The notes under the pieces are model-generated. The model worked only from the letters and a program-made list of their open reading frames with translations. It had not been told where the DNA came from and searched no databases. A stretch of 64,000 bases of DNA. Source: Sphingobium sp. Ant17. GTDB lineage: Bacteria; Pseudomonadota; Alphaproteobacteria; Sphingomonadales; Sphingomonadaceae. The DNA lies in NCBI RefSeq assembly GCF_000588875.1, contig NZ_JEMV01000010.1, forward strand, positions 1,062 to 65,061, read 5' to 3'. A program made the translations under genes and the position numbers. Each line of letters opens with the position of its first letter. Position 1 is the first letter of the stretch. Positions 22,924 through 36,114 of the stretch are shown here, piece after piece.

Positions 22924-23241
22924 ATGCCCGAACTGAACGTCATCACCCGCGACGGCACCTGCAAGACGATCGATGCGCCCGCCGACATTTCTGTGATGGA
23001 AGCCATCCGCGATGCCGGCTTCGACGAATTGCTGGCGCTGTGTGGCGGCTGCTGTTCGTGCGCGACCTGCCATGTCTATGTCGACCCCGCGGTCGCCGCG
23101 AGCCTGCCGCCGGTCACGGACGATGAAAGCGACCTGCTCGACGGATCGTCGCATCGCAACGACCTTTCGCGCCTGTCGTGCCAGATCATGTTGACGCAGG
23201 CCCTGTCGGGCATGACCGTCACGATCGCGCCCGAAGATTGA
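22924..23241 (+). CDS. [2Fe-2S] ferredoxin
   Basis: 105 residues of the adrenodoxin/putidaredoxin type: [16 protein letters not shown] contains the C-x5-C-x2-C ligands and the fourth cysteine is in RLSCQIML. This class feeds electrons to class I bacterial P450s and some Rieske oxygenases. The start ATG at 22924 has gaggaa upstream. Both the P450 at 3541 and the Rieske pair at 23986-26012 are possible partners. No ferredoxin reductase gene was recognised in the window, so that component must come from elsewhere. Confidence 0.93.
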
Positions 23242-23253
23242 CGGCAGCGCGGG

Positions 23254-23919
23254 TCAGGCGACGGGCGGCAGCAGCGCGGCGAGCAGGAAACCGGCCAGCC
23301 GGTCGGCCTGCGCGGCGGCATGGGCGTCATCGACTTCGCCCCCTGCCCCCAGCCGCTGTTGCATCGGCACGGCGGAGAAGTAGAAGCCCACCCCCTGTAC
23401 CAGCAATGCCATCAGCGCGGGGGTGGACAGATCGTGCACCGGCCGTTGCCGCCGCACCGCGTCCAGCAGATCGTCCAGTCGCCGCTGGAACGGCAGCACG
23501 AAATGTTCGACGATATGGTCGAGCCGCCAGGTCGAGCGGCATCCTTCGACATTGGTGAGCGAGACGATGTCGCCATTGCGGGTCGCCCAGAGGCAGAAGC
23601 GCTGGATCAGGTGGCGCAGGCGGACTTCGGCGTCTGCGGGTTCGTCGAACGCGGCTTCGACGAAGGGCGATGCCTGCGCCATGCGCCAATCGACTGCGCG
23701 GACCCACAAATCCTCCTTCCGCCCGAAGCGGACGTTGAGCAGATTATGGCTGACGCCCAGCCGCTTGGACAGGTCGCGCAGCGTCGTCCCTTCATAGCCG
23801 CGTTCGGCGAAGGTCGCGAAGGCAAGCCCAAGCAACTGGTCCTCATCCAAGGCCTGGACGGCATTGAGGGCGGGGCGGCCACGGGCGCGCTGGGGTCGAT
23901 CGAGCATCTGCTGATCCAT
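23254..23919 (-). CDS. TetR-family transcriptional regulator
   Basis: 221 residues with the N-terminal TetR helix-turn-helix: GLAFATFAERGYEGTTLRDL followed by SKRLGVSHNLLNVRFGRKEDL. The ligand domain is of generic TetR type. It is divergent from the Rieske gene, with 66 bases between the starts, and an inverted repeat overlaps the presumed promoter. It most likely represses the Rieske operon until a pathway metabolite binds. Confidence 0.9.
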   Translation of the reverse strand: MDQQMLDRPQRARGRPALNAVQALDEDQLLGLAFATFAERGYEGTTLRDLSKRLGVSHNLLNVRFGRKEDLWVRAVDWRMAQASPFVEAAFDEPADAEVRLRHLIQRFCLWATRNGDIVSLTNVEGCRSTWRLDHIVEHFVLPFQRRLDDLLDAVRRQRPVHDLSTPALMALLVQGVGFYFSAVPMQQRLGAGGEVDDAHAAAQADRLAGFLLAALLPPVA

Positions 23920-23985: not shown

Positions 23986-24924
23986 ATGAGTCTCGATACC
24001 GATCTTTGGTGGGCCGTCGCCCGGTCTGAGGAAGTCACGTCCAAAAAGCCGCTGTCGGTGGACATTGGCGACCAGCCGGTGGTGCTGTGGCGCGACCATC
24101 AGGGCATTGCCCGCGCGCTGGAGGATCGCTGTCCCCACCGCCGCGCGCCGCTGTCGCTGGGCTGTATCCGCGACAACGGGCTGATCCAGTGCGGCTATCA
24201 TGGCTGGAGCTATGATGGCGAGACGGGGCGGCTGAAAGAGATCCCAAACATGAAGGATCAACAGAAATTTCCGCCGCTTTACAAGGCCAATGCCTTCGGC
24301 GTCAGCGAACAGGCCGGCTTCGTGCGCGTCTGCCTGAACCCCAAGGCAGAGGCGCCACTGAGCGCTGACCCTAAATATGGCTATATCGGCACGGTCAACG
24401 TCAGTTGCGGCCATCAGGAATATCTCGATGCCCTGTATGACGATCCCGCGCTGATCCTGGCGATCCGGGGCGTGCGGTTCAGCCCCTATATCATGTCCGA
24501 ACTGCATGAAGAGGGCGAAATGCTGGTGATGGAGCGCAGTTGCCAATGGCACCCGCTGCATTGGCCATCGCATTTCGTCGCCGAATTTCCGCTGACGCTG
24601 CTGACCCGCACCCATCCGCTGACCGGCGAGACGCGTCTGACGCTGCGCGACGACGCCTTCAACGACCTGCTCCATGCCGTGCTGTCCCCCGTCCCTGCAG
24701 CGCGCGGCGTGACCGCCGTGCGCTGGCGCGCGGAACTGGGCGTGCGTCGGCCGGGGCTGCGTGGCGCGATGCTGCGCGGGATCAATCCGCTGACCGTCCT
24801 GTCGTCCATCGACGGATCGAAGCTGCGGACCACCAAGCCGACCGTATCGCTGCATGGCGAGGATTTGCGCAACGCCCTGCTCGACGCGCCGCAGGACACC
24901 CACGACCAGACCGTAGCGGCCTGA
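23986..24924 (+). CDS. Rieske [2Fe-2S] protein without a recognisable oxygenase iron site
   Basis: 312 residues. The N-terminal Rieske domain is complete: EDRCPHRRAPLSLG (CxH) and QCGYHGWSYDG (CxxH) at about residues 45-75, after the WWAVARSEEV start typical of oxygenase alpha subunits. The C-terminal two-thirds lacks the mononuclear-iron motif (N..D..H....H); the corresponding region reads TVNVSCGHQEYLDALYDDP. It therefore appears able to carry electrons but not to activate oxygen. It is 14 bases upstream of a second gene with the opposite defect. The ATG at 23986 is chosen because homology starts there. Confidence 0.88.
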   Translation: MSLDTDLWWAVARSEEVTSKKPLSVDIGDQPVVLWRDHQGIARALEDRCPHRRAPLSLGCIRDNGLIQCGYHGWSYDGETGRLKEIPNMKDQQKFPPLYKANAFGVSEQAGFVRVCLNPKAEAPLSADPKYGYIGTVNVSCGHQEYLDALYDDPALILAIRGVRFSPYIMSELHEEGEMLVMERSCQWHPLHWPSHFVAEFPLTLLTRTHPLTGETRLTLRDDAFNDLLHAVLSPVPAARGVTAVRWRAELGVRRPGLRGAMLRGINPLTVLSSIDGSKLRTTKPTVSLHGEDLRNALLDAPQDTHDQTVAA

Positions 24925-24938
24925 AGGAGGATTTGACC

Positions 24939-26012
24939 ATGTTAGACATCGCCGATCACCCCGCATCCCATGACGACAATAGCGCGCCGCCATCCGGTGG
25001 CAGCCCGATCGCCATGAATGTCGTCAACCGCTGGGTTCCGCACAATATCGTGATGCGCGACAGCTGGTTCCCGGTCGCCCACGACTATTCGGTGACGGGC
25101 AAGCCGGTGCGCCGTGCCGTCTATTCCAACCCGATTTTCCTGTGGCGCGACAATGGCGTGGTCGTGGCCAGCGAGTTCCACCCCAATGAGCGCGTGGTGC
25201 GTGACAAGAGCGACTATACCGACGCACGTGGCCACTATCCGGTGATGGAACATTATGGGGTGGTCTGGATCTGGCTGGGCAATCCGCTGGCGGCCGATCC
25301 GCGCCATTTGCCCAGCCTGCCCTTCCTGCCGCCCAAGGGTGGCCTGCCCCGGCACATGACGGCGACGGTGCGCTTCGAAAGCGCCGCGCCGATCAGCCTC
25401 GAGAATCTGATCGACCTGACCCATGCCGATTTCCTGCACGCCGACGTCGTGGGCGACGAACGGTCGGACAGCGAGACGATCGAGACCTATTATGACAGCG
25501 AGACCGTCACCATGGTCCGCACCTGCGTCAATAAATCGGTCGCGCCCGTGATGAAATTCTTCAGCGGCATCAAGCAGCCGACCCAGAATGTGCGGCAGGT
25601 GATCCGCATCTATCTGCGGTCGCATTGCGCGATCGCCTATGGCCGGTTCAGCCCCGGCGACGACGTGCCGCTGTTCCACCCCTGCACCCCTGAAACGCGG
25701 GATCGTACGCGGATGGAAATGGTCATGAACACCAGCAATGCCGGGCGCATGTTCAGCTATGTCATGCCCAAGGCGGGCTACAAGGTGTCGCGGCAGGACA
25801 GCTATATGACCTCCCCGCAAAGCCCGCGTTACATGCGCCATACCGACCGCAAGGATTTGCACAGCAAGTTCGACCAGGCCGGGCAGCGTTATCGCATGGC
25901 GATGATGGAACTGGCCGATCGCCAGGCAAAGGGCGACTTCGCCTATCGCGATAATGTGAGCGCCGATTGCAGCGACATCATCGGCCTGCGCAAGGAACTG
26001 TTCCAGTTCTGA
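24939..26012 (+). CDS. Rieske-oxygenase catalytic subunit lacking the Rieske cluster
   Basis: 357 residues of the ring-hydroxylating oxygenase alpha-subunit type. The start of the usual fold is present (RDSWFPVAHDYSVTGKPVRR, NPIFLWRDNGVVVA) and it resumes at HYPVMEHYGVVWIWLGNP. The cluster-binding subdomain that normally lies between is replaced by about 20 residues without Cys, so no CxH or CxxH pair exists. The catalytic iron motif is intact in SLENLIDLTHADFLHADVVG (Asn, Asp, His, His). The frame is open throughout and the RBS aaggaggat is strong, so this is not a sequencing artefact of the frameshift kind. It probably pairs with the Rieske protein encoded just upstream. Confidence 0.87.
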   Translation: MLDIADHPASHDDNSAPPSGGSPIAMNVVNRWVPHNIVMRDSWFPVAHDYSVTGKPVRRAVYSNPIFLWRDNGVVVASEFHPNERVVRDKSDYTDARGHYPVMEHYGVVWIWLGNPLAADPRHLPSLPFLPPKGGLPRHMTATVRFESAAPISLENLIDLTHADFLHADVVGDERSDSETIETYYDSETVTMVRTCVNKSVAPVMKFFSGIKQPTQNVRQVIRIYLRSHCAIAYGRFSPGDDVPLFHPCTPETRDRTRMEMVMNTSNAGRMFSYVMPKAGYKVSRQDSYMTSPQSPRYMRHTDRKDLHSKFDQAGQRYRMAMMELADRQAKGDFAYRDNVSADCSDIIGLRKELFQF

Positions 26013-26030: not shown

Positions 26031-26057
26031 GGGCGGACCACTATGGTCCGCCCGGTT
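26031..26057 (+). terminator. Strong rho-independent terminator or attenuator
   Basis: A perfect 10-bp stem GGGCGGACCA/TGGTCCGCCC with a 3-base loop is followed by GG and six T. It ends the Rieske operon (stop at 26012) but lies only 16 bases before the ATG of the next gene on the same strand, so it could also limit read-through into the LLM gene. Confidence 0.85.
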
Positions 26058-26072
26058 TTTTCGGGATGCTTC

Positions 26073-27146
26073 ATGCCAAAGCTCGTCAACGCCGTCGGCG
26101 GCGAACGCCGCTGGTGGGGGGTCATGCCGACCCTGCCCGCCCCCATGATGGGCGGGATCGGCCAGAAGATGGAGCAGGTCGGCTTCGAGGGTTGCTTTTC
26201 GCTCCAGATTTACGGCCCGCCCTTCGTGCCGATGGCGGCGACGGCTGCGCTGACCAGCAGCCTGAAGGTGGGCACCGGCGTCGCGATCGCGGGCACGCGC
26301 AGCCCGGTCGAAACCGCCTATGCGGCGATGGACGTGGACCGGATTTCGGGCGGGCGCTTCGTGCTGGGGCTGGGGTCCAGCATCAAGAGTTGTGTCACCG
26401 GCATGTATGGCGAACCGGAACGCAAATTGCTGACCCATTTGCGCGAGAGCGTGAAGGTGATCCGCTATGTCATTGCCAACGCGCATACCGGGCTGGACCC
26501 GATCGAGGGCGAGTACTTCACCGCCGATTTTGGCGAGATGATGCTGACGGCGCCGCCAGTTCGTGTGGAAATCCCGATCTGGATCGCTGCGTTGCAGGAC
26601 AAGATGACCGCGCTGGCGCTGGAGGTTGGCGACGGGCTGATGGTCCATGCGCTCTGGTCGGCGGCCTATGCGCGCAGCAAGCTGCCCTTCATCGAAGCGA
26701 CGCTGGCCAAATATGGCCGCGCGCGCAGCGACATAGAGATTAACGCCTGGCCTTGGATCGCGGTCAACGACGACAAGCAGAAGGCGATCGACGACAGCCG
26801 CGCGACGGTGGCCGCCTATTCGGGCTATAAGGAATATGAGCCGTTCTTCGAAGCGATCGGCTTTGGCGACCAGGCGCGGGCCTGCCAACTGAGCCTGGGC
26901 GAACATGGCGACATCGCCAAGGTGATCGGCAATGTGTCCGATGATATGGTAGAGGCGTTCGTGACCTGCGGCCCGGTGGACGAGGTGCTGGAGAAGATCG
27001 AGCCCTTCTGGGACGTGGTGGATTCGCTCTGCCCGATGACGCCCTATCGCCACCTGACGATGGCGCAGATGACCGACTATAATGCGGGTCTGTACGCACT
27101 GGTCGCCACCGCGAAGGCGCGGGCCGGGGTCAGCGAACCCGCCTGA
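26073..27146 (+). CDS. LLM-class F420-dependent oxidoreductase
   Basis: 357 residues with the luciferase-like TIM barrel: MEQVGFEGCFSLQIYGPPF, SLKVGTGVAIAGTRSPVETA, DRISGGRFVLGLGSSIK and a C-terminal KVIGNVSDDMVEAFVTCGPVDEV. This branch resembles F420-dependent methylene-tetrahydromethanopterin-reductase-like enzymes of actinobacteria. It should use F420 for hydride transfer to or from a carbon substrate. It follows the Rieske pair on the same strand but behind a terminator. The ATG at 26073 is assumed, although the RBS (cgggatg) is weak. It is convergent with the KstD-like gene, four bases apart. Confidence 0.88.
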   Translation: MPKLVNAVGGERRWWGVMPTLPAPMMGGIGQKMEQVGFEGCFSLQIYGPPFVPMAATAALTSSLKVGTGVAIAGTRSPVETAYAAMDVDRISGGRFVLGLGSSIKSCVTGMYGEPERKLLTHLRESVKVIRYVIANAHTGLDPIEGEYFTADFGEMMLTAPPVRVEIPIWIAALQDKMTALALEVGDGLMVHALWSAAYARSKLPFIEATLAKYGRARSDIEINAWPWIAVNDDKQKAIDDSRATVAAYSGYKEYEPFFEAIGFGDQARACQLSLGEHGDIAKVIGNVSDDMVEAFVTCGPVDEVLEKIEPFWDVVDSLCPMTPYRHLTMAQMTDYNAGLYALVATAKARAGVSEPA

Positions 27147-27150
27147 ACGG

Positions 27151-28805
27151 TCAGACGGGCACCAGCGCTTCCGCCATCGCCTGCCCCGCAATATAGCCCG
27201 TCACCATCGCCGGACCAACATTGCAGCCATGGGCGGGCGACTTGCCGCGCCAGATGGAATTGGCGTCCAGCCCCGCGGCATAGAGGCCCGCGACCGGCGC
27301 ACCACCGGTGCCGATGACCCGACAATGCGCGTCGATCTTCAAGCCCACCGTGGTCGATCCGTCGCCCGGATGGATCTTGATCGCGTAGAAAGGCGCCTTT
27401 TCGACGCGGCCGAGGCAGGGGTTGGGTTTGTGCTTCGGGTCGCCGATCTCGATGTCGATCTGGGTATCGCCCTTGCCGAAATCGGGGTCTCTGCCGGTTT
27501 CGGCGTAACGATTCATCTTGGCCACGGTCGCGAGCAGGCCGTCGCCATCGACGCCGATCTTGTCGGCGAGTGCCCGCAGAGTCGGCGCTTCGATCACATA
27601 GCCAGCCGCGATCAGCTTTTTCAGCCCGCCGCCGCCGGGCAGCACCATGCCCATGCCGTAGGTCTTGACGCAATGGGCGTCGCCGATGATATGGGCGGGC
27701 ACCGTACCGGTGGCGTGCATCGCCTCAACGAAATGCACCGACGCTTCGTTGCCGAACCGCTCGCCCTTCCCGTTGACGGCGATGCAGCCGGGTTTCGACA
27801 TGTCGATCAGATGCGCGTAGCGGGCGACATAGCCGTCGGGCCGGGTCATGGTGGATACCACGGCCCAAACGGCGTTGACCAGATTGTCGCCGTCCAGCGA
27901 TGCGCCAGCCTCCAGACCCATATTCATGCCGTCGCCGGTATTTTCGTAGGGGAGGATAGAGACATGGTCCTCCGCATAAGGGATATAGGCTTTGCGCAAT
28001 TGCTCGCTGGCGGAAAAGCCGCCCGCCGCCAGCAGCACGCCGACGTTGGCGGCGATATCCTCGCCACCCACGCGCACGCCGGTCACGCGGCCGTCGGCGA
28101 CCAGCAGGCGATCGACCGCCGCGTACTTGCGCAGGGTTATGCCCGCGTCGAGCGCGGACCGCAGCAGCCGCGCGACAAGGGCGTTGCCCATCGTCAGACG
28201 GGTGCCACGCGGGTAGCGGCGCAGCTTGTCCGCGCCGAATTTCGCGGCAAGCTTGCCGAAGTGGAACAGGGATTTGGGCGAAGGCATCTCCGCCAAATAG
28301 GGCAGATCGAACAGGTCGATCATGAAGCCGCCGGGTGCGTTGAATTCCTCGCGCGCGGGGCGCAGGTCGGCGAAATGCGCGCCGAGCTTCTTGCCGTCAT
28401 ATTCCTGGGGCGACAGCAGGCGGCCATGGTCGGCGGACCCGGCGATGTCGGGATACCAGTCGCTGCTGGGCGGCGAGAGGAGGAAGCGGACGGCGCTGTT
28501 GTTTTCCAGCCAGGCGACCATGGCGGCGCGGCGTCAAGATAGGCGTCGATCAGCGCCGGGTCGGCGCTTGGCCCGATGACGTCCAGCACATATTGGCGCG
28601 CGACCGCGGCGCTGTCATCGACCCCGGCGGCCTGCGCCTGCGGACTGCCCGGCACCCAGATGCCGCCCCCCGATATAGCGGTGGTGCCGCCGAAATGCGC
28701 GGCCTTTTCCAGCACCAGCACCGACAGGCCTGCCGCAGCGGCCCGCAGCGCCGCCGTCAAGCCCGCCGCGCCCGATCCGACGACGACCACATCATATTGG
28801 GTCAT
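27151..28805 (-). CDS. KstD-like FAD-dependent dehydrogenase, with a 1-base deletion
   Basis: 551 residues after repair, a flavoprotein of the fumarate reductase/3-ketosteroid delta-1-dehydrogenase superfamily. The ADP-binding motif VVVVGSGAAGLTAALRAAAA, EKAAHFGGTTAISGGGIWVP and the C-terminal GLYAAGLDANS with GYIAGQAM are the family marks. It would introduce or reduce a C=C bond next to a carbonyl. The C-terminal YPG-type motif of true KstD is replaced by SPAHGCNVG, so it is not a standard KstD. The frame breaks near 28528 (LIDAYLDAA then MVAWLENNS); the 1655-nt span needs one added base. It is the last gene of the fbiC operon. Confidence 0.86.
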
Positions 28806-28840
28806 GATCTACTCCGATTCACTATGCGGGTGGGCAATGC

Positions 28841-29760
28841 TCACACCCTGGGCATGATTTCTTCGGCTACCCAGTGCAGGCGCTCAATATATTCGGTCAG
28901 GCCCGTCATGCCCGGTGGCAGCGGCACGATCGTTTCGTTGACGCCCAAATCCTTCAGCCAGCCGATCTGGTCGATGATTTTCTGCGCATTGCGGGTGCCG
29001 GGCGCGCGGGGATCATCCATAATTTCGTGATGGGCGCCGACATTTAGCATTTCCAGCGCGAAGAACAGGTCGATCGGGCGACCGTCATAGGTCGCTGCGC
29101 GCGGATAAGGTCGAGACATGCGGGGAATTTTTCGGGCGGGGTGCGGAAGGGCGACCAGCCGTCGCCGAATTTCGCGACGCGCTTGAGCACCGGTTCCGCG
29201 TCACCGCCGAACCAGATCGGCAGGCGCGGCTGCTGCACCGGCTTGGGCGCGAAGCCGACATTCTTGAAGGAGACAAATTCCCCTTCGAACGTCGGCGTGT
29301 CGGACGTCCATAGTTCGATGATTGCGGCGACATATTCGTCCGCCATGCGCCCGCGATTGTGGAAATCGACGCCCAGCATGTCGAATTCCTCCTTCAGCCA
29401 GCCGACGCCGAACAGCGCGGTCGCGCGGCCGCCGCTCAGCCAGTCGAGCGTGGACCAGGCCTTGGCCTGTACGATCGGGCTTTGCAGCGGCAGGATGGAG
29501 ACGGACGAGCTGACCCGCATTTTCGATGTCCGCCCGGCGAGGAAAGCGAGCGCCACCGTGCCATGGACATAATGGTCGCCAGACAGGGCGATATGTTCCT
29601 GCGGGATGATGAAATGTTCGCCCAACATGCATTTGTTGAAGCCCAGATCGTCAGCGACCTTAAGCGCGCGACCGATATCGTCGCCGGTCAGCGCATGTTC
29701 CCATGGCTGGGTCATCGCCGCCACATGCATCGAATTGGGCACGCCGATGTTGAGCTTCAT
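28841..29760 (-). CDS. LLM-class F420-dependent oxidoreductase (TIGR03619-like), with a 1-base deletion
   Basis: 306 residues after repair. Typical segments are RALKVADDLGFNKCMLGEHF, MRVSSSVSILPLQSPIVQAK, ALFGVGWLKEEFDMLGVDF and PRLPIWFGGDAEPVLKRVA, matching the LLM subfamily annotated as F420-dependent in actinobacteria. The frame breaks near 29097 (after LDLIRA, resuming ATYDGRPIDLFFALEML); one base is missing. It lies in the fbiC operon directly after the NADPH:F420 reductase gene, which strongly supports F420 as cofactor. A candidate operator (29822-29836) lies 61 bases before its start. Confidence 0.88.
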
Positions 29761-29821
29761 TCCTCTATCCCCTGTATCGTTTATGCCCGGCAGGATGGCG
29801 CGCCCGGTGGCCGGGTCGCAC

Positions 29822-29836
29822 CTTCCGCCCGGAAGG
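29822..29836 (-). promoter_or_regulatory. Candidate regulon operator CCTTCCGGGCGGAAG
   Basis: In the 84-base gap between the F420 reductase and LLM genes, a palindrome CCTTCCgcccGGAAGG. It is the weakest match of the set in its centre but keeps the arm positions. It could instead be an RNA hairpin after the reductase gene. Confidence 0.35.
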
Positions 29837-29844
29837 GGTTGCGC

Positions 29845-30500
29845 TCAATCCGTCGGCGGGATCAGGTCGCCGGTGATGCGGATGCCCGCGCCGTCAACCT
29901 TGTAGGTCTTGTTGAGGAAGATGAGGATCGAGGTCAGGGCTTCGGCCGCCGCCGAATTGCACAGCGCGCCACCGTGCAGGCCGCGCAGGCCCATCGCGTC
30001 GGCCAACGCGACGACCTGGCCCCGCGCCGCCTTGTCATCGCCGAACACCAGCACGTCGCAGCCGACATCGACATCCTTGGCCAGCTTGTGCGCGGCGACA
30101 TTGTGGAAGGCAGACACGACAGTCATCCCTTCGCCCAGCGCGGCCTGCGCGCGGAGCGCGGCCGATCCCTCGGCGGGGAGTTGCACGCGCATCACCTTGG
30201 GCGGGACCAGCGGGACGGTGGTGTCCACCACGATCTTGCCCGCGACATGGGGCGCGATGTCGCGCAGCGTCGCGTCCTGCGCCGCGAAGGGCACGGTGAC
30301 GATGACGATGTCCGCGCCGGCCGCCGCGTCGATATTGGTGGCGCCGGAGAGGCCGTGGCCGAGTTCCGCCGCGTCTTTTGCGCGCCGTCCGCGCTGCGCG
30401 ATCCGATAACGACGGGATAGCCCGCACGGGCGAGGCGCCAGGCGATCGCCGCGCCCAGATTGCCGGTGCCGCCGACGACGGCGATGGATGGAAAGTTCAT
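29845..30500 (-). CDS. fno: NADPH:F420 oxidoreductase, with a 1-base deletion
   Basis: 218 residues after repair. The N-terminus IAVVGGTGNLGAAIAWRLA and VVIGSRSADGA form the NADP-binding Rossmann fold of Fno/NpdG, followed by ADIVIVTVPFAAQDATL, KIVVDTTVPLVPP and SAFHNVAAHKLAKDVDVGCD, the known F420-contacting region. It exchanges hydride between NADPH and F420, providing F420H2 or recycling it. The frame breaks near 30383 (SADGA, then KDAAELGHG); one base is missing. It overlaps the SDR gene upstream (ATGA) in the fbiC operon. No F420-dependent glucose-6-phosphate dehydrogenase is seen, so this is the likely F420-reducing enzyme. Confidence 0.92.
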
Positions 30501-31327
30501 GCGCTGGTTCCTGATTGCATGGCAGCGAAGCGCATCATGTCCGCATAGACCGCCGAATGGGATGTAAAGCCGCCATCGGCGACGATCGATGCGCCCGTAA
30601 CATAACGGGCCTGGTCGGACGCGAGGAAGGCGACGACTTCGGCGATATCCTCCGGCCGGCCCAGATAATCGACCAGATTATGTTCGGTCATCAGCTTCTG
30701 GGCCTCTGGCGGCATATTGTCGTCCAGCGCCTCTGTCATCACCAGGCCGACCACGACCACGTTGGAGCGGATGCCCTGCTTGCCATATTGGGTGGCGATA
30801 TATTTGGAGAGGCCCAGCATCCCTGCCTTGGTCGTGCCATAGGCAGGATAGTCGACATCGCCCGCCAGCCCCTTGCCGGAACCTGTGAAGACGATCGACC
30901 CGCCGCCTGCCGACAGCAGATGGGGGATGGCGTGCTTGGCGCACAGCATCGACCCGCGCAGGTTGGTGGCAAAAGTGCGATCCCAGAAGGCGACGTCCAT
31001 GTCGGCGATCAGCGCGTCTTCGTGCATCAGGCCGGTCTGGGCGGCGTTGCTGTGGAGGATATGGAGGCCGCCGAAATGATCGACCACCTTGGTTATGCCC
31101 GCCGCGATCGAGGCTTCCTCCATCACGTCCATGGCGACGGCGAGCGCCTGCCCGCCCTGCGCCGTGATTTCGTCGACCACATGGGACAGGCGCGATTCGG
31201 TGCGGCCGGTGATCGCGACCTTCGCGCCGCGCTGCGCCATCATCAGCGCGGTGGCGCGGCCGATGCCGCTGCCGCCGCCGGTGATGATCGCGACCTTGTC
31301 CTTCAGAGGGTGCAAGAGATCGGTCAT
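30497..31327 (-). CDS. Short-chain dehydrogenase/reductase
   Basis: 276 residues: TGGGSGIGRATALMMA, LHILHSNAAQTG, catalytic Ser in VFTGSGKGLAGD and the YGTTK Tyr-Lys pair. It ends with GASIVADGGFTSHSAVYADMM. FGGLHILH and the extended tail resemble the SDR at 5269, suggesting duplication. It overlaps both fbiC and the F420 reductase gene, so it is translationally coupled to F420 genes. It probably supplies or consumes the ketone/alcohol used by the F420-dependent enzymes. Confidence 0.91.
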   Translation of the reverse strand: MTDLLHPLKDKVAIITGGGSGIGRATALMMAQRGAKVAITGRTESRLSHVVDEITAQGGQALAVAMDVMEEASIAAGITKVVDHFGGLHILHSNAAQTGLMHEDALIADMDVAFWDRTFATNLRGSMLCAKHAIPHLLSAGGGSIVFTGSGKGLAGDVDYPAYGTTKAGMLGLSKYIATQYGKQGIRSNVVVVGLVMTEALDDNMPPEAQKLMTEHNLVDYLGRPEDIAEVVAFLASDQARYVTGASIVADGGFTSHSAVYADMMRFAAMQSGTSA

Positions 31328-33661
31328 AGGGACTCCGTGATGTGGGTTTGCCGGGGCGATACCGGATCATAAAGGGTAGTGCGCTGGCGGACGGGACGTC
31401 CGACCGATGCGGCGAGCGCACGCATTTGCGTGGGGCCAAATTCCTGGCCGTTAACGCCACCCGCCGCGCGGGTGATCGATTCGTCCATGAGCGTGCCGCC
31501 CATGTCGTTGGCGCCCGCGTTCAGGATTGCCGCCGCCCCCTCCGGTCCCATCTTGACCCAGGACACCTGGATATTGGGGATCAGCGGATGCAGGACGATG
31601 CGGGCGATGGCGTGCATCAGCACCGCCTCGCGATAGCTTGGTCCCGACCGGGCCAGCCCCTTGCGCCAGATCGGCGCTTCCATATGGACGAAGGGCAAGG
31701 GGACAAATTCGGTGAAGCCGCCGGTCTGTTCCTGCAAGGCGCGGATGCGCAGCAGGTGGCGCGCCCAGTGGCGATAGCCTCGACATGGCCGAACATGATC
31801 GTCGCGGTGCTGCGCAGGCCGATGCCATGGGCCACGCGCATCACTTCGATCCATTCGTCTGCGCTGACCTTGTCCGGGCATATCAGCGCGCGGATTTCGG
31901 GGTCGAGTATCTCGGCCGCGGTGCCGGGCAAGGTGGAGAGGCCCGCCGCCTTCAACTGCGCCAGATAATCCTCCAGCGGCAGGCCCAGCGTATGCGCGCC
32001 ATGGGTAACTTCCAGCGGGGAGAAAGCGTGGATATGGATGTCCGGCGCGGCTTTGCGCACGGCCTTCAGAACGGAGAGATAGGTGTTGCCGTCATAGTCG
32101 GGATGGATGCCCCCTTGCAGGCAGACTTCGGTGGCGCCGCGATCCCATGCTTCGGCCGCGCGCCGTCCAACCTCGGCATAGTCGAGCCGGTAGGCGGGGC
32201 CGCGCATCGCCTTCGTACTGCCCTTCGAAAAGGCGCAGAAGCCGCATTTGTAGAGGCAGATATTGGTGTAGTTGATGTTGCGATTGACGGCATAGGTCAG
32301 CGTGTCGCCGATAGTCTCCTGCCGCAGCCGGTCGGCCTGGGCGACGATGGCAGCAAGGTCGTGGCCATCGGCATCGAACAGGGTGACGATGTCACGCTCG
32401 CTCAGGCGCGCACCAGCTTCGGCGTGGCGCAGGAGCGCCTGCACCGATGCCGATGCCTGGCCGACATCGCCGCCGATCAGCGCGGGCGCGTCGTCGCCAT
32501 GCCCGGCGGCCCAATCGTCGGGCTTGGGCAGGCCGCGTCCGTCGATCGCGCGCAGGATAAGGGTTGCGACCGCAGGCGCGGCCCAATCCTGCGCCGCCAG
32601 CGCGTAACGTGGCCCGATGGCAAGGCGTTGGGAAAGCGTGCGGCCAGCGGCGCGGGTGGCCTGCGCCAATGTCTCCAGATGGGGCCATGGGGCTTCGGGG
32701 TTCACATGGTCGGGCGTCACCGGCGACACCCCGCCCCAGTCGTTTACCCCGGCCCGGATCAGCGGAGCAAGATCGACTTGGTCGTGGAGGTTGGGCGGCG
32801 CCTGGATCGTCATGTCCGGTCCCAGGATCAGCCGCGCGGCGGCGATCGTCCAGAGATGATCGTCGAGCGCCGGTTCGGCATGTTCGGCCATCCGCGTGCC
32901 CGGCTTGGCCCGGAAATTCTGGATGATGACTTCCTGAATATGGCCATATTGGCGATGCAGGTCGCGGATGGCGACCAGCGCGTCGACCTGTTCGTCGCGG
33001 GTTTCGCCGATGCCGATCAGCAGCCCGGTGGTGAAAGGCACTTTGGTGCGGCCCGCCTCCGCGATCGTGGCCAGACGACGCGCAGGCTGCTTGTCGGGCG
33101 AGCCGAAATGCGGGCCGCCACGCGCGCACAGCCGATCTGCGCTGCTTTCCAGCATGATGCCCATCGACGCGGCATGGGGGCGCAGCAGGGCATAGTCGGC
33201 CGCGTCCATCAGGCCGGGGTTGAGGTGGGGCAACAGGCCGGTTTCGCGCAGGACCAGTTCCGCCATTTCGGCGAGGTAGGAAAGCGTGGAATCATGGCCC
33301 AGCCGGGCCAGCGCGTCGCGCGCCGCGGCATAGCGGTCCTCGGGCCGGTCGCCCAGGGTGAACAGCGCCTCCCGGCACCCGGCCTCAGCGCCCGCGCGCG
33401 CGATCGCCAGGACTTCTTCGCGGCTGAGATAGGCGTCGACCGCCGGCGCGGTGTGGTGGCAAAGGTGCAGTAATGGCAGACGTCGCGGCATAATTTGGTG
33501 AGCGGAATGAACACTTTGCGCGAATAGGTGACGCGGGCGCCATGCCCCTCCAGCGTCAGCGCTTCCGCCTGCGTCATCATCGCGGCCAGCGTGCTGGCGC
33601 GCAGCAGGGCCGCAATCTCGCCAGCGGCCGCGTCCATGCGATGCAGATCGTCCAAAGTCAC
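31324..33661 (-). CDS. fbiC: FO synthase FbiC (CofG-CofH fusion), with two 1-base deletions
   Basis: 779 residues once two bases are restored (2338-nt span). It makes the deazaflavin FO from tyrosine and the flavin precursor 5-amino-6-ribitylaminouracil using two radical-SAM domains. The CofG half comes first with [10 protein letters not shown] (CxxxCxxC), the CofH half later with [15 protein letters not shown]. Also visible are [16 protein letters not shown]-type (here [17 protein letters not shown]) and [14 protein letters not shown] motifs. Frames break near 33453 and 31777, each by one missing base. The GTG at 33661 has ggagtaggat as RBS. It heads the operon fbiC-SDR-fno-LLM-flavoprotein. 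Two separate cofG/cofH genes are not supported. Confidence 0.93.
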
Positions 33662-33693
33662 ATCCTACTCCGCAGTTATCCCGGCCCGAGGCG

Positions 33694-33724
33694 CAGGCGG
33701 GGCAGATGCTATCTGCCCCGCCTG
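33694..33724. terminator. Perfect 14-bp hairpin between the receptor gene and fbiC
   Basis: CAGGCGGGGCAGAT-gct-ATCTGCCCCGCCTG is a perfect 14-bp inverted repeat, nine bases after the TonB receptor stop and 33 bases before the fbiC start. There is no T-run on the minus strand, so it may terminate poorly or act as a 5' leader structure or protein site for fbiC. Confidence 0.55.
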
Positions 33725-33732
33725 CCTTCTCA

Positions 33733-36114
33733 TCAGAAGCTGTATTTCGCGCTGACGCCCCAGGTCCGTGGCTCCCCGGCATAGACCGAGCTGAGCGGGA
33801 AGGAGGACAGCAATACGCTGGACGCCGAGAAATATTCTTCCTTGAAGACATTCTTCACGAACACGCCCAGATCCAGGCCCGTGCCGCCAATGCCGCGCCA
33901 GTCGAGGCGGGCGTTGACCAGCTTGTAGCCGGGCAGCTTTTCGCCGTTCTGGCCACCGAAATCATCGGTCATGAACAGGTCCGAGTTGAAGGCGAGATCG
34001 CCGTCGGCCGGCTTGATCGGCAGGATCCAGCTCACGCTCGCCGTGCCGGAGAATTTGGGCGAGTAGGTGTTGATTTGCGCCTTGCCCAGCGTGACCGAGG
34101 CGGGCAGCCCGTTCGGTACGTTGACGCTTTCCACCTTCACGTCGGTATAGGCGGCGTTGAAGGACACGGTGAAGTTGCGGGTGGGGCTGATCGAGGCTTC
34201 CAGTTCCACGCCCCATATCCGCAGGTTGGCGACATTGGCCGCCAGCGATCCGTTGGTCGGCGAATCCGGCGTGCCATTGGGGATGATGGTCTGCGTGTTG
34301 AGGAATTGCAGCGCGTTTTTATACTTGCTGTAATAGGCCGCGATGTTCAATCGGCCGCGTGCCTCCCCCACATGATAGTCATATTTCGACCCCAGTTCGA
34401 CGTCGGTGATCCGCTCCTCGCCGGTCTTCTGGAAGGCGCGCAGGTCGGGGCAGACGCCGCCGGTTGCGACGCAGGACGGATCGACGCCGCCGGTGGTGAA
34501 GGGCGTTTCGAACAGCGGGGTGTTGATGTTCACGCCGCGATAGCCGCGCCGCGACGAAATGTAGAGCAGCCAGTCGGGCGTCGCCTTGTAATCCAGGCCG
34601 ATGGTCCAGCTCGGCTCCTCCCCCTTGTTGGAGACGGTGCCGACGCCATCGGCCAAGCCAAGCGCTGCCGTGGCCAGGCAGGTATCCTCATCGACGTAGC
34701 TGGTGCCGATCGTGCCGCCGCAGGCCGATACCTTGTCCCAGCTGTAACGCGCGCCGAGGTTCAGTTTCAGCTTATCCGTGATTTCATAACCGATCTGGCC
34801 ATAGACCGCGAAATTCTTGTTGCGGACATGCGCGCTAACCGCAGGCGCTGGCACTCCACCGACCGAGAAGGCCGTGAATTGCGATCCGGTGGGACCGGCG
34901 GACTTGTCGTTATTGTAGAAGACGCCGGTGATGAAGTTGAACGACCCGAAATCGCCCAGCAACTGGGTTTCGTTGGTCAGATACTGGCGATCCAGCACCG
35001 ACGCGGCGTGGAACAGGGTGAAGGGCACAGCAGCGGGGAGTGGCGCGGGCAGGCCGGTGGGGATCGACAGATTTTGCAGCGCGCCGGTGTTGATCAGCTG
35101 ATTGCTGAAATTCTTGCGGAAACCGAAGATGTTGCGCAGCGTCAGGTCGCCAAAGCTGAACGAGGTGTCGTTGGTGATCGACGTCATCTTGCGCGACGAA
35201 CGGCCGCCATTGATGCCGCCGTCGAACGAACCGCGCCGGTTGGCGCGCTGCGTTTCGAGCGCCTGCTGTGCCTGCGGGTCCAGCACGCCGAGGCCGAAGG
35301 CGGCGAGCGAGAAATTCTGGCGCAGCAGATAGAGGCCACCGGCCAGTTCGTCGCTCTTGAAATATTCGTAGATGGTGGTGCTTTTCAGACCCTCGACCGG
35401 CTCCAGCAGCAAGGACAGGCGAAAGGCATCCTGCTTTATATTGTCAAAGCCCGGCCCGCCGTCAAAGGCGATCGTGCGGGGATCCTGCCGCCGGACCTGG
35501 CCGGCCGCGCGGAACGCTACCTTGTCGGCAACGATGGGGACGTTGATCGCACCTTCCAGTTCGCGATAGTCGAAGCTGCCATATGTGCCCTCGACATAGC
35601 CTTCAAATTCATAGGAGGGGCGCTGGCTGCCGATGACCACGGCGCCGCCCAGCGTGTTGCGACCGAACAAGGTGCCCTGCGGCCCTTTGAGCACCTGGAT
35701 GCTGCCAATGTCGTAGGTCGGCACGTTCGAGCCGACGGCAGGCAGCGGGGTGTCGTTCAGGTAGATGACCACGCCTGGCGTGACTTCGCCCAACGGCAAC
35801 TGGCCGATGCCGCGCAGGGTGAGCGCGACATTGTCCTTGCCGCCTTCGGACGAGAAGGTGAAGCCCGGTGCGATCGTCTTGACGTCGCTGACCGTCTGGA
35901 CGGTGCTGCGCTCCAGCGAGGCGGCCGAGAAGGCGGAGATGGAGACGGACACGTCCTGCAACCGTTCTTCGCGACGGCGGGCGGTGACGACGATGTCGCC
36001 GCTGCTGGAACTTTCAGCCTGGGGCGCCACGCTGGTCGCGTCCTGCGCCCAGAGCGGGGTCGCCAAGGTCGCACCGGTCGACAGCAACGCCAGTTTCAAA
36101 ATGCCGAATTTCAT
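33733..36114 (-). CDS. TonB-dependent outer-membrane receptor
   Basis: 793 residues: signal peptide MKFGILKLALLSTGATLATP ending near LWAQ, TonB-box region DIVVTARRREERLQDVS, plug motif KGPQGTLFGRNTLGGAVVIG, and a C-terminal barrel closing with TWGVSAKYSF. It is the second receptor of the window; only the plug and signature motifs resemble the one at 6138. It should import the growth substrate or a related compound. It is followed by fbiC on the same strand. A candidate regulon operator lies 94 bases before its start. Confidence 0.94.
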   Translation of the reverse strand: MKFGILKLALLSTGATLATPLWAQDATSVAPQAESSSSGDIVVTARRREERLQDVSVSISAFSAASLERSTVQTVSDVKTIAPGFTFSSEGGKDNVALTLRGIGQLPLGEVTPGVVIYLNDTPLPAVGSNVPTYDIGSIQVLKGPQGTLFGRNTLGGAVVIGSQRPSYEFEGYVEGTYGSFDYRELEGAINVPIVADKVAFRAAGQVRRQDPRTIAFDGGPGFDNIKQDAFRLSLLLEPVEGLKSTTIYEYFKSDELAGGLYLLRQNFSLAAFGLGVLDPQAQQALETQRANRRGSFDGGINGGRSSRKMTSITNDTSFSFGDLTLRNIFGFRKNFSNQLINTGALQNLSIPTGLPAPLPAAVPFTLFHAASVLDRQYLTNETQLLGDFGSFNFITGVFYNNDKSAGPTGSQFTAFSVGGVPAPAVSAHVRNKNFAVYGQIGYEITDKLKLNLGARYSWDKVSACGGTIGTSYVDEDTCLATAALGLADGVGTVSNKGEEPSWTIGLDYKATPDWLLYISSRRGYRGVNINTPLFETPFTTGGVDPSCVATGGVCPDLRAFQKTGEERITDVELGSKYDYHVGEARGRLNIAAYYSKYKNALQFLNTQTIIPNGTPDSPTNGSLAANVANLRIWGVELEASISPTRNFTVSFNAAYTDVKVESVNVPNGLPASVTLGKAQINTYSPKFSGTASVSWILPIKPADGDLAFNSDLFMTDDFGGQNGEKLPGYKLVNARLDWRGIGGTGLDLGVFVKNVFKEEYFSASSVLLSSFPLSSVYAGEPRTWGVSAKYSF

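Follow-up and report, generated by a model that had tools for sequence, protein, structure and literature searches.

Can the two metal centres of a Rieske oxygenase be shared out between two proteins and still make up a single enzyme? The question is raised by two adjacent genes, here gene 1 and gene 2, of Sphingobium sp. Ant17. They lie in a window of 64,000 nucleotides (the whole stretch of DNA that was analysed: positions 1,062 to 65,061 of contig NZ_JEMV01000010.1, assembly GCF_000588875.1). The original prediction, which had placed both genes correctly at 23986..26012, saw in them an oxygenase split into complementary halves. Our analysis leads to the same answer: the two products very probably join as subunits of a single Rieske non-heme iron oxygenase, a hetero-oligomer, and the data support a split, within one kind of Rieske oxygenase, that is conserved, co-inherited and complementary.

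Complementary metal sites

Comparison with Pfam, at E-values up to 1, separates the two proteins neatly. Gene 1 matches Rieske families only (PF00355, E 3e-25; PF13806, weakly), and gene 2 matches VanA_C only (PF19112, E 8e-32). The Rieske ligands CxH...CxxH are present in gene 1 and not in gene 2, the iron motif DxxH(4)H with its carboxylate is present in gene 2 and not in gene 1, and neither polypeptide carries both sites. Conservation was followed in 80 gene-1 and 81 gene-2 alignment rows. Since the Rieske and iron motifs served to select these rows, the invariance in them of the cluster ligands and of D159, H162 and H167 is there by construction. A smaller set of seven pairs was chosen by whole-protein similarity, independently of motif picking; there too the cluster ligands of gene 1 and the mononuclear-iron motif of gene 2 are invariant (Table 1).

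Gene 1 keeps the trace of an iron helix. Its D152 belongs to no search pattern and stands in 80/80 rows; in a profile alignment it pairs with a residue of DdmC (the oxygenase of dicamba O-demethylase) which we take to be the bridging aspartate. At the two places of the iron histidines, a histidine is found in four of the 80 rows (position 155) and in none (position 160). Outside the cluster, H143 (66/80) is the sole histidine of gene 1 to reach 60% of the rows, and no three-ligand iron site is therefore conserved. A cryptic iron site in gene 1, named at the outset as the observation that would speak against a split, is thus rejected on conservation.

The picture is reversed in gene 2. Here we take D159 to be the bridging aspartate, and H162 and H167 to be iron ligands. 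The position of D287, presumably that of an iron ligand, makes this residue the likely third one; the only row that departs from it, that of locus L096, is out of frame at this point. The cluster-binding subdomain has given way to a short loop, whose length agrees with the 'about 20 residues' first proposed, and no Rieske motif was found in any of the 80 gene-2 relatives examined, so that the other refuting condition of the original prediction, a second gene containing the cluster subdomain, fails as well. When profiles of 26 gene-1 and 26 gene-2 proteins are compared, residues 5-124 of gene 1 pair with residues 40-120 of gene 2 (probability 93%), while the cluster-binding part falls into gaps and mismatches: the subdomain is absent from gene 2. 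No cysteine of gene 2 reaches 60% of the rows, and one occurs within residues 80-100 in six of the 81. What remains of the Rieske domain keeps H48 (72/81) and H81 (64/81).

Predicted structures point the same way. AlphaFold gives gene 1 of the window as a whole Rieske-oxygenase alpha subunit with a dead iron site, and the gene-2 homologue of locus L066 as a whole alpha subunit deprived of the cluster subdomain, with a dead Rieske site. In both models the alpha-subunit fold (Rieske domain and helix-grip catalytic domain) matches DdmC, the top fold match of each; by sequence, DdmC again ranks first for gene 1 and within the first three for gene 2. Guaiacol demethylase and the saxitoxin oxygenases SxtT/GxtA are among the further relatives of both proteins whose structures are solved. 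When a homologous pair is folded as one joined read-through chain, the predicted template-modelling score (pTM) is 0.83, implying, at the level of a model, a defined contact between the two products.

Table 1. Position of the two genes, of their metal-site residues and of adjoining features in the window
Feature	Position	Strand	Remarks
[2Fe-2S] ferredoxin	22924..23241	+	Fer2 PF00111; ferredoxin motif
Divergent TetR-family regulator	23254..23919	-	Adjoins the pair in 6/7 loci compared, window included
Gene 1	23986..24924	+	312 amino acids, intact frame; Rieske-bearing, iron-less alpha-type subunit
Rieske [2Fe-2S] ligands C49, H51, C69, H72 of gene 1	24130..24201	+	Invariant in 7 similarity-chosen rows; 80/80 motif-picked rows
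Dead iron helix of gene 1	24439..24465	+	D152 kept; iron-histidine places 155 and 160 are A and I
Gene 2	24939..26012	+	357 amino acids, intact frame; iron-bearing, Rieske-less alpha-type subunit
Short loop of gene 2, residues 82-99	25182..25235	+	Replaces cluster-binding subdomain; 17-20 residues long across 81 rows; gene 1/gene 2 hhalign comparison
D159, H162, H167 of gene 2	25413..25439	+	Invariant in 7 similarity-chosen rows; 81/81 motif-picked rows
D287 of gene 2	25797..25799	+	80/81 rows; invariant in 7 similarity-chosen rows; outside any search pattern
Terminator-like hairpin, 10 pairs and T run	26031..26053	+	Directly after gene 2; 1 found, 1.1 expected in shuffles

Spread, selection and origin of the pair

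The same pair was sought elsewhere, as the original prediction had advised, by scanning one genome per species in 84,980 species with either of two patterns, of which ENL[IM]DLTH includes a part of the iron motif and ET[IV]TMVRT none of it. This gave 134 gene-2 relatives. Among the best 80 of these, gene 1 lies directly upstream on the same strand in 79; the single unpaired relative (L086) starts at a contig end, so that pairing is 79/79 wherever the contig allows. These 80 come from Alpha- (39), Gamma- (26) and Betaproteobacteria (14), with one unplaced. The genes are closely packed: with script-chosen starts, 11 of the 79 pairs overlap, 46 are 0-20 bases apart, 19 are 21-50, two are 51-100 and one is more than 100 bases apart. 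Among 249 genomes sampled from the window's family, that of the window being one, seven full-length copies of gene 1 and seven of gene 2 were counted; five genomes hold them all, every gene 1 beside a gene 2. The family of the split oxygenase is rare at a larger scale: at cut-offs of 1e-30 and 1e-40, the window's own genome was the only one found among 398 drawn from the phylum. That genome is rich in oxygenases, with 23 Rieske-domain matches.

Both genes are under purifying selection. The ratio of non-synonymous to synonymous substitution rates (dN/dS) is 0.06-0.11 for gene 1 and 0.03-0.11 for gene 2 against the eight closest of ten relatives, and 0.33-0.34 and 0.16-0.17 against the two more distant, for which dS is close to 1. 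Within gene 1, five comparisons show a faster rate of change in the C-terminal half than in the Rieske half, with constraint nonetheless acting on the former. A quick tree of 19 gene-1, 19 gene-2 and 52 full-length proteins places each gene in one clade (Shimodaira-Hasegawa-like approximate likelihood ratio test support, 100), with the same three inner clades in both: one mostly of Alphaproteobacteria, one uniting Pseudomonas with Betaproteobacteria, and a small mixed one. Two of these six inner branches have support below 95 (87 and 92). One clade per gene, with matching inner clades, means that the split probably arose once, as an ancient event followed by joint inheritance.

What did it arise from? 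Gene 1 and gene 2 lie near different full-length relatives in the quick tree, on long stems that call for a long-branch warning for gene 1, and the similarities of 54 full-length relatives to the two proteins are weakly rank-correlated (0.25, p 0.07). Two of the proteins in this correlation (L071, L133) are gene-1 proteins miscalled full-length by a loose pattern, and were left out of the tree. From a separate correlation, of distances, L096 was left out. For these two reasons, the weak correlation and the different nearest relatives, we hold a common full-length ancestor to be likely and no firmer than that. Simple fission at a domain boundary is rejected, both domain scaffolds being kept in each protein. 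Since each keeps a whole alpha-subunit fold with one dead site, duplication and complementary loss is preferred to a domain cut: a full-length VanA/DdmC-like oxygenase would have been duplicated, one copy losing its iron histidines to become gene 1, the other its cluster subdomain to become gene 2.

Several further observations were made on these loci. Of the 68 pairs without overlap, 18 (L115, L107, L109, L114, L126, L131 and others) have both genes in one reading frame, about what chance would give; in 15 of the 18 just one TGA stands between the genes, with a gap of 0-33 bases, and a read-through fusion is conceivable there. The pair occurs twice in at least five genomes (L073/L099, L090/L093, L112/L113, L097/L134, L074/L101). 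Identity of gene 1 between copies ranges from 34 to 100%, which suggests paralogous split oxygenases, although the assembly may account for the identical copies L112/L113. Large plasmids in Novosphingobium, Croceicoccus and Massilia (L140, L141, matches H2 and H3) are further carriers of the pair or of its gene 2, and one of them, pSA2, is typed as conjugative. Finally, the pair found in a metagenome-assembled genome labelled Paraburkholderia resembles those of sphingomonads and changes frame towards the end of gene 2 (L096:10001-11077); it is perhaps mis-binned or recently transferred.

Proposed assembly and electron path, and rival explanations

In characterised Rieske oxygenases, according to passages of a 2025 review (PMC12445004), electrons cross between subunits over about 12 Å, the distance within a subunit being about 45 Å, and the structurally characterised members have C3 symmetry. 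If this geometry holds for the pair, the iron of gene 2 would be served only by the cluster of a neighbouring gene-1 subunit, via D159. We infer an obligate hetero-oligomer assembled head to tail, neither half of which should work alone. Electrons would pass from NAD(P)H to a reductase, a ferredoxin, the gene-1 cluster, D159 and then the gene-2 iron, where dioxygen would be activated on a catabolic substrate that is probably hydrophobic or aromatic. A ring of three cannot alternate, and this leaves one working site per trimer, or an even ring, or gene 2 decorating a gene-1 core. In a three-membered ring of both types exactly one step leads from gene 1 to gene 2, hence a single working interface. 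The chances are evenly balanced that the pair forms a new kind of assembly, with cluster and iron obligately on different gene products, in an even ring (alternating six subunits, for example) or in a three-membered one with one working cluster-to-iron interface. If so, a mixed three-ring would break C3 symmetry; in an alternating ring the subunits would have to meet at a different angle.

Several points weigh against a two-subunit oxygenase. Two of the counts are partly built in, one scan pattern holding the iron motif and the rows having been picked with the Rieske and iron motifs. Four gene-1 rows do have a histidine at position 155, and the sequence by itself shows no homology between the gene-1 C-terminal half and catalytic domains. 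Congruent trees are expected of any two adjacent co-inherited genes. The pTM of 0.83 is an uncalibrated score, obtained on a joined chain. As for electron supply, a ferredoxin is missing from the examined flanks of 44 of 80 loci, and a regular-expression scan of locus flanks for one type of reductase found none.

Other explanations must be set against these same data. Gene 1 might not be a permanent subunit but an independent carrier of electrons, binding gene-2 homotrimers no more than transiently, in the manner of a Rieske ferredoxin: it is the sole Rieske protein of the pair, its sequence similarity to oxygenases ends at D152, and gene 2 could in principle trimerise alone. Against this, the fold predicted for gene 1 is that of a whole alpha subunit and not of a small ferredoxin, its dead catalytic half is kept under selection, its D152 is invariant, and the joined-chain pTM points to a defined interface; we find this carrier improbable. 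Still less credit goes to the idea that gene 2, whose iron site is complete, needs no Rieske cluster and uses, for example, another reductant, gene 1 being a regulatory or assembly partner. The bridging aspartate of Rieske oxygenases acts in transfer from cluster to iron, and gene 2 keeps it, while gene 1 has the full cluster motif in 79/79 loci where the contig allows. There remains the suspicion that one oxygenase gene was broken by a frameshift or an assembly error, and in this window at least three other nearby genes are split into two frames. It is refuted by the relatives, paired in 79 of 80 cases; the frames of the pair are intact, dN/dS is low and each protein spans the length of an oxygenase, so that this suspicion retains next to no probability. 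The reading as two subunits of one oxygenase is the one that we retain.

Neighbouring genes and known counterparts

The two genes of the window are separated by 14 bases, AAGGAGG precedes gene 2, and a weaker AAGGA precedes gene 1. The hairpin after gene 2 is consistent with a two-gene transcript, a weak argument by itself. Upstream of gene 1, an inverted repeat of at least 8 and a promoter-like site were looked for, and neither was found. The ferredoxin of Table 1 is a likely candidate for the electron donor; a ferredoxin gene with the same motif lies in the examined flanks of 36 of 80 loci. In sphingomonads the pair has as neighbours F420 genes, LLM oxidoreductases, a short-chain dehydrogenase/reductase (SDR), VOC, sulfotransferase and a ketosteroid-dehydrogenase-like flavin adenine dinucleotide (FAD) enzyme. 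One Pseudomonas locus has genes resembling SDRs, coenzyme A (CoA) transferase, acyl-CoA dehydrogenase and an efflux pump, mostly under curated cut-offs. An enoyl-CoA hydratase lies beside the pair in Aromatoleum; in Sphingobium TCM1, as on the Massilia plasmid, standard oxygenase beta subunits are found near it. These neighbours suggest catabolism of hydrophobic ring compounds. Passages of one paper on bile salts, compared with the neighbourhood, gave no match.

Next to the pair, positions 26043-33851 of the window hold coenzyme F420 genes (CofH-like FO synthase, npdG, LLM oxidoreductases), as in some sphingomonads, and plasmid pSA2 has this block annotated too, with cofC. Three minus-strand genes appear broken into two frames here: that of the ketosteroid-dehydrogenase-like FAD enzyme (27151-28805), that of an LLM oxidoreductase (28841-29760) and that of an F420-NADP reductase (29845-30500). 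They are single frames in the near-identical loci L060 and L072, and in this draft of 199 contigs their breaks would be recent lesions or sequence errors. The FO synthase gene (31324-33851) also spans two frames.

A split of this kind has a precedent among eukaryotes. The chlorophyllide a oxygenase (CAO) of Micromonas pusilla (MpCAO) consists of two polypeptide chains; the purified enzyme, supplied with a non-native reductase, yielded chlorophyllide b in vitro, and the authors consider a trimer of dimers likely (passages of PMC9615114). Our pair would likewise be one Rieske oxygenase on two polypeptides, with complementary sites, though MpCAO is eukaryotic and serves pigment biosynthesis. In MpCAO, too, the cluster reportedly sits on one chain and the iron on the other (Kunugi, in 2013). 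CAO has another C-terminal domain family. The catalytic domain of gene 2 is VanA_C, its only Pfam match at E-values up to 1. The two splits are probably independent.

The original prediction had invoked caffeine N-demethylase components, and this analogy holds in part. NdmC of NdmCDE, the 7-methylxanthine N7-demethylase of Pseudomonas putida CBB5, is a non-heme iron oxygenase without a Rieske cluster, thought to use that of NdmD (passages of PMC4408171). Gene 2 would likewise rely on a cluster carried by another protein. The fusion of Rieske domain and reductase in NdmD has no equivalent here, where the cluster sits on a whole alpha-type subunit, and the two-chain MpCAO is the closer precedent. 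NdmCDE further requires NdmE, similar to glutathione-S-transferase, and none is annotated around the pair at the two loci considered, on pSA2 of N. resinovorum and on the Massilia plasmid. Membership in NdmCDE is rejected: there is no reductase fusion, and gene 1 has Rieske-family Pfam matches only. As to DdmC, a homotrimer (alpha-3), it carries both sites on one chain; NdmA/NdmB, an alpha-3 alpha-prime-3 assembly, combines two different alpha-type chains (passages of PMC12445004), as the gene pair presumably does. Among the matches listed in open-licence PubMed Central papers, the subscription literature being outside the search, we found no account of this bacterial split-oxygenase family.

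In ordinary Rieske oxygenases both metal sites are present on every alpha subunit, which makes inter-subunit transfer and the counting of sites hard to separate genetically. The pair seems to be a natural separation of cluster and iron, in bacteria of three proteobacterial classes, and it suggests a second, bacterial counterpart to the two-chain design of the algal chlorophyllide a oxygenase. Cluster mutants and iron mutants could be made independently, mixed and compared, as a test of electron passing between subunits. There is also a warning for annotation: one half is labelled 'Rieske (2Fe-2S) protein' and the other 'aromatic ring-hydroxylating dioxygenase subunit alpha', and these separate labels miss that each may need the other.
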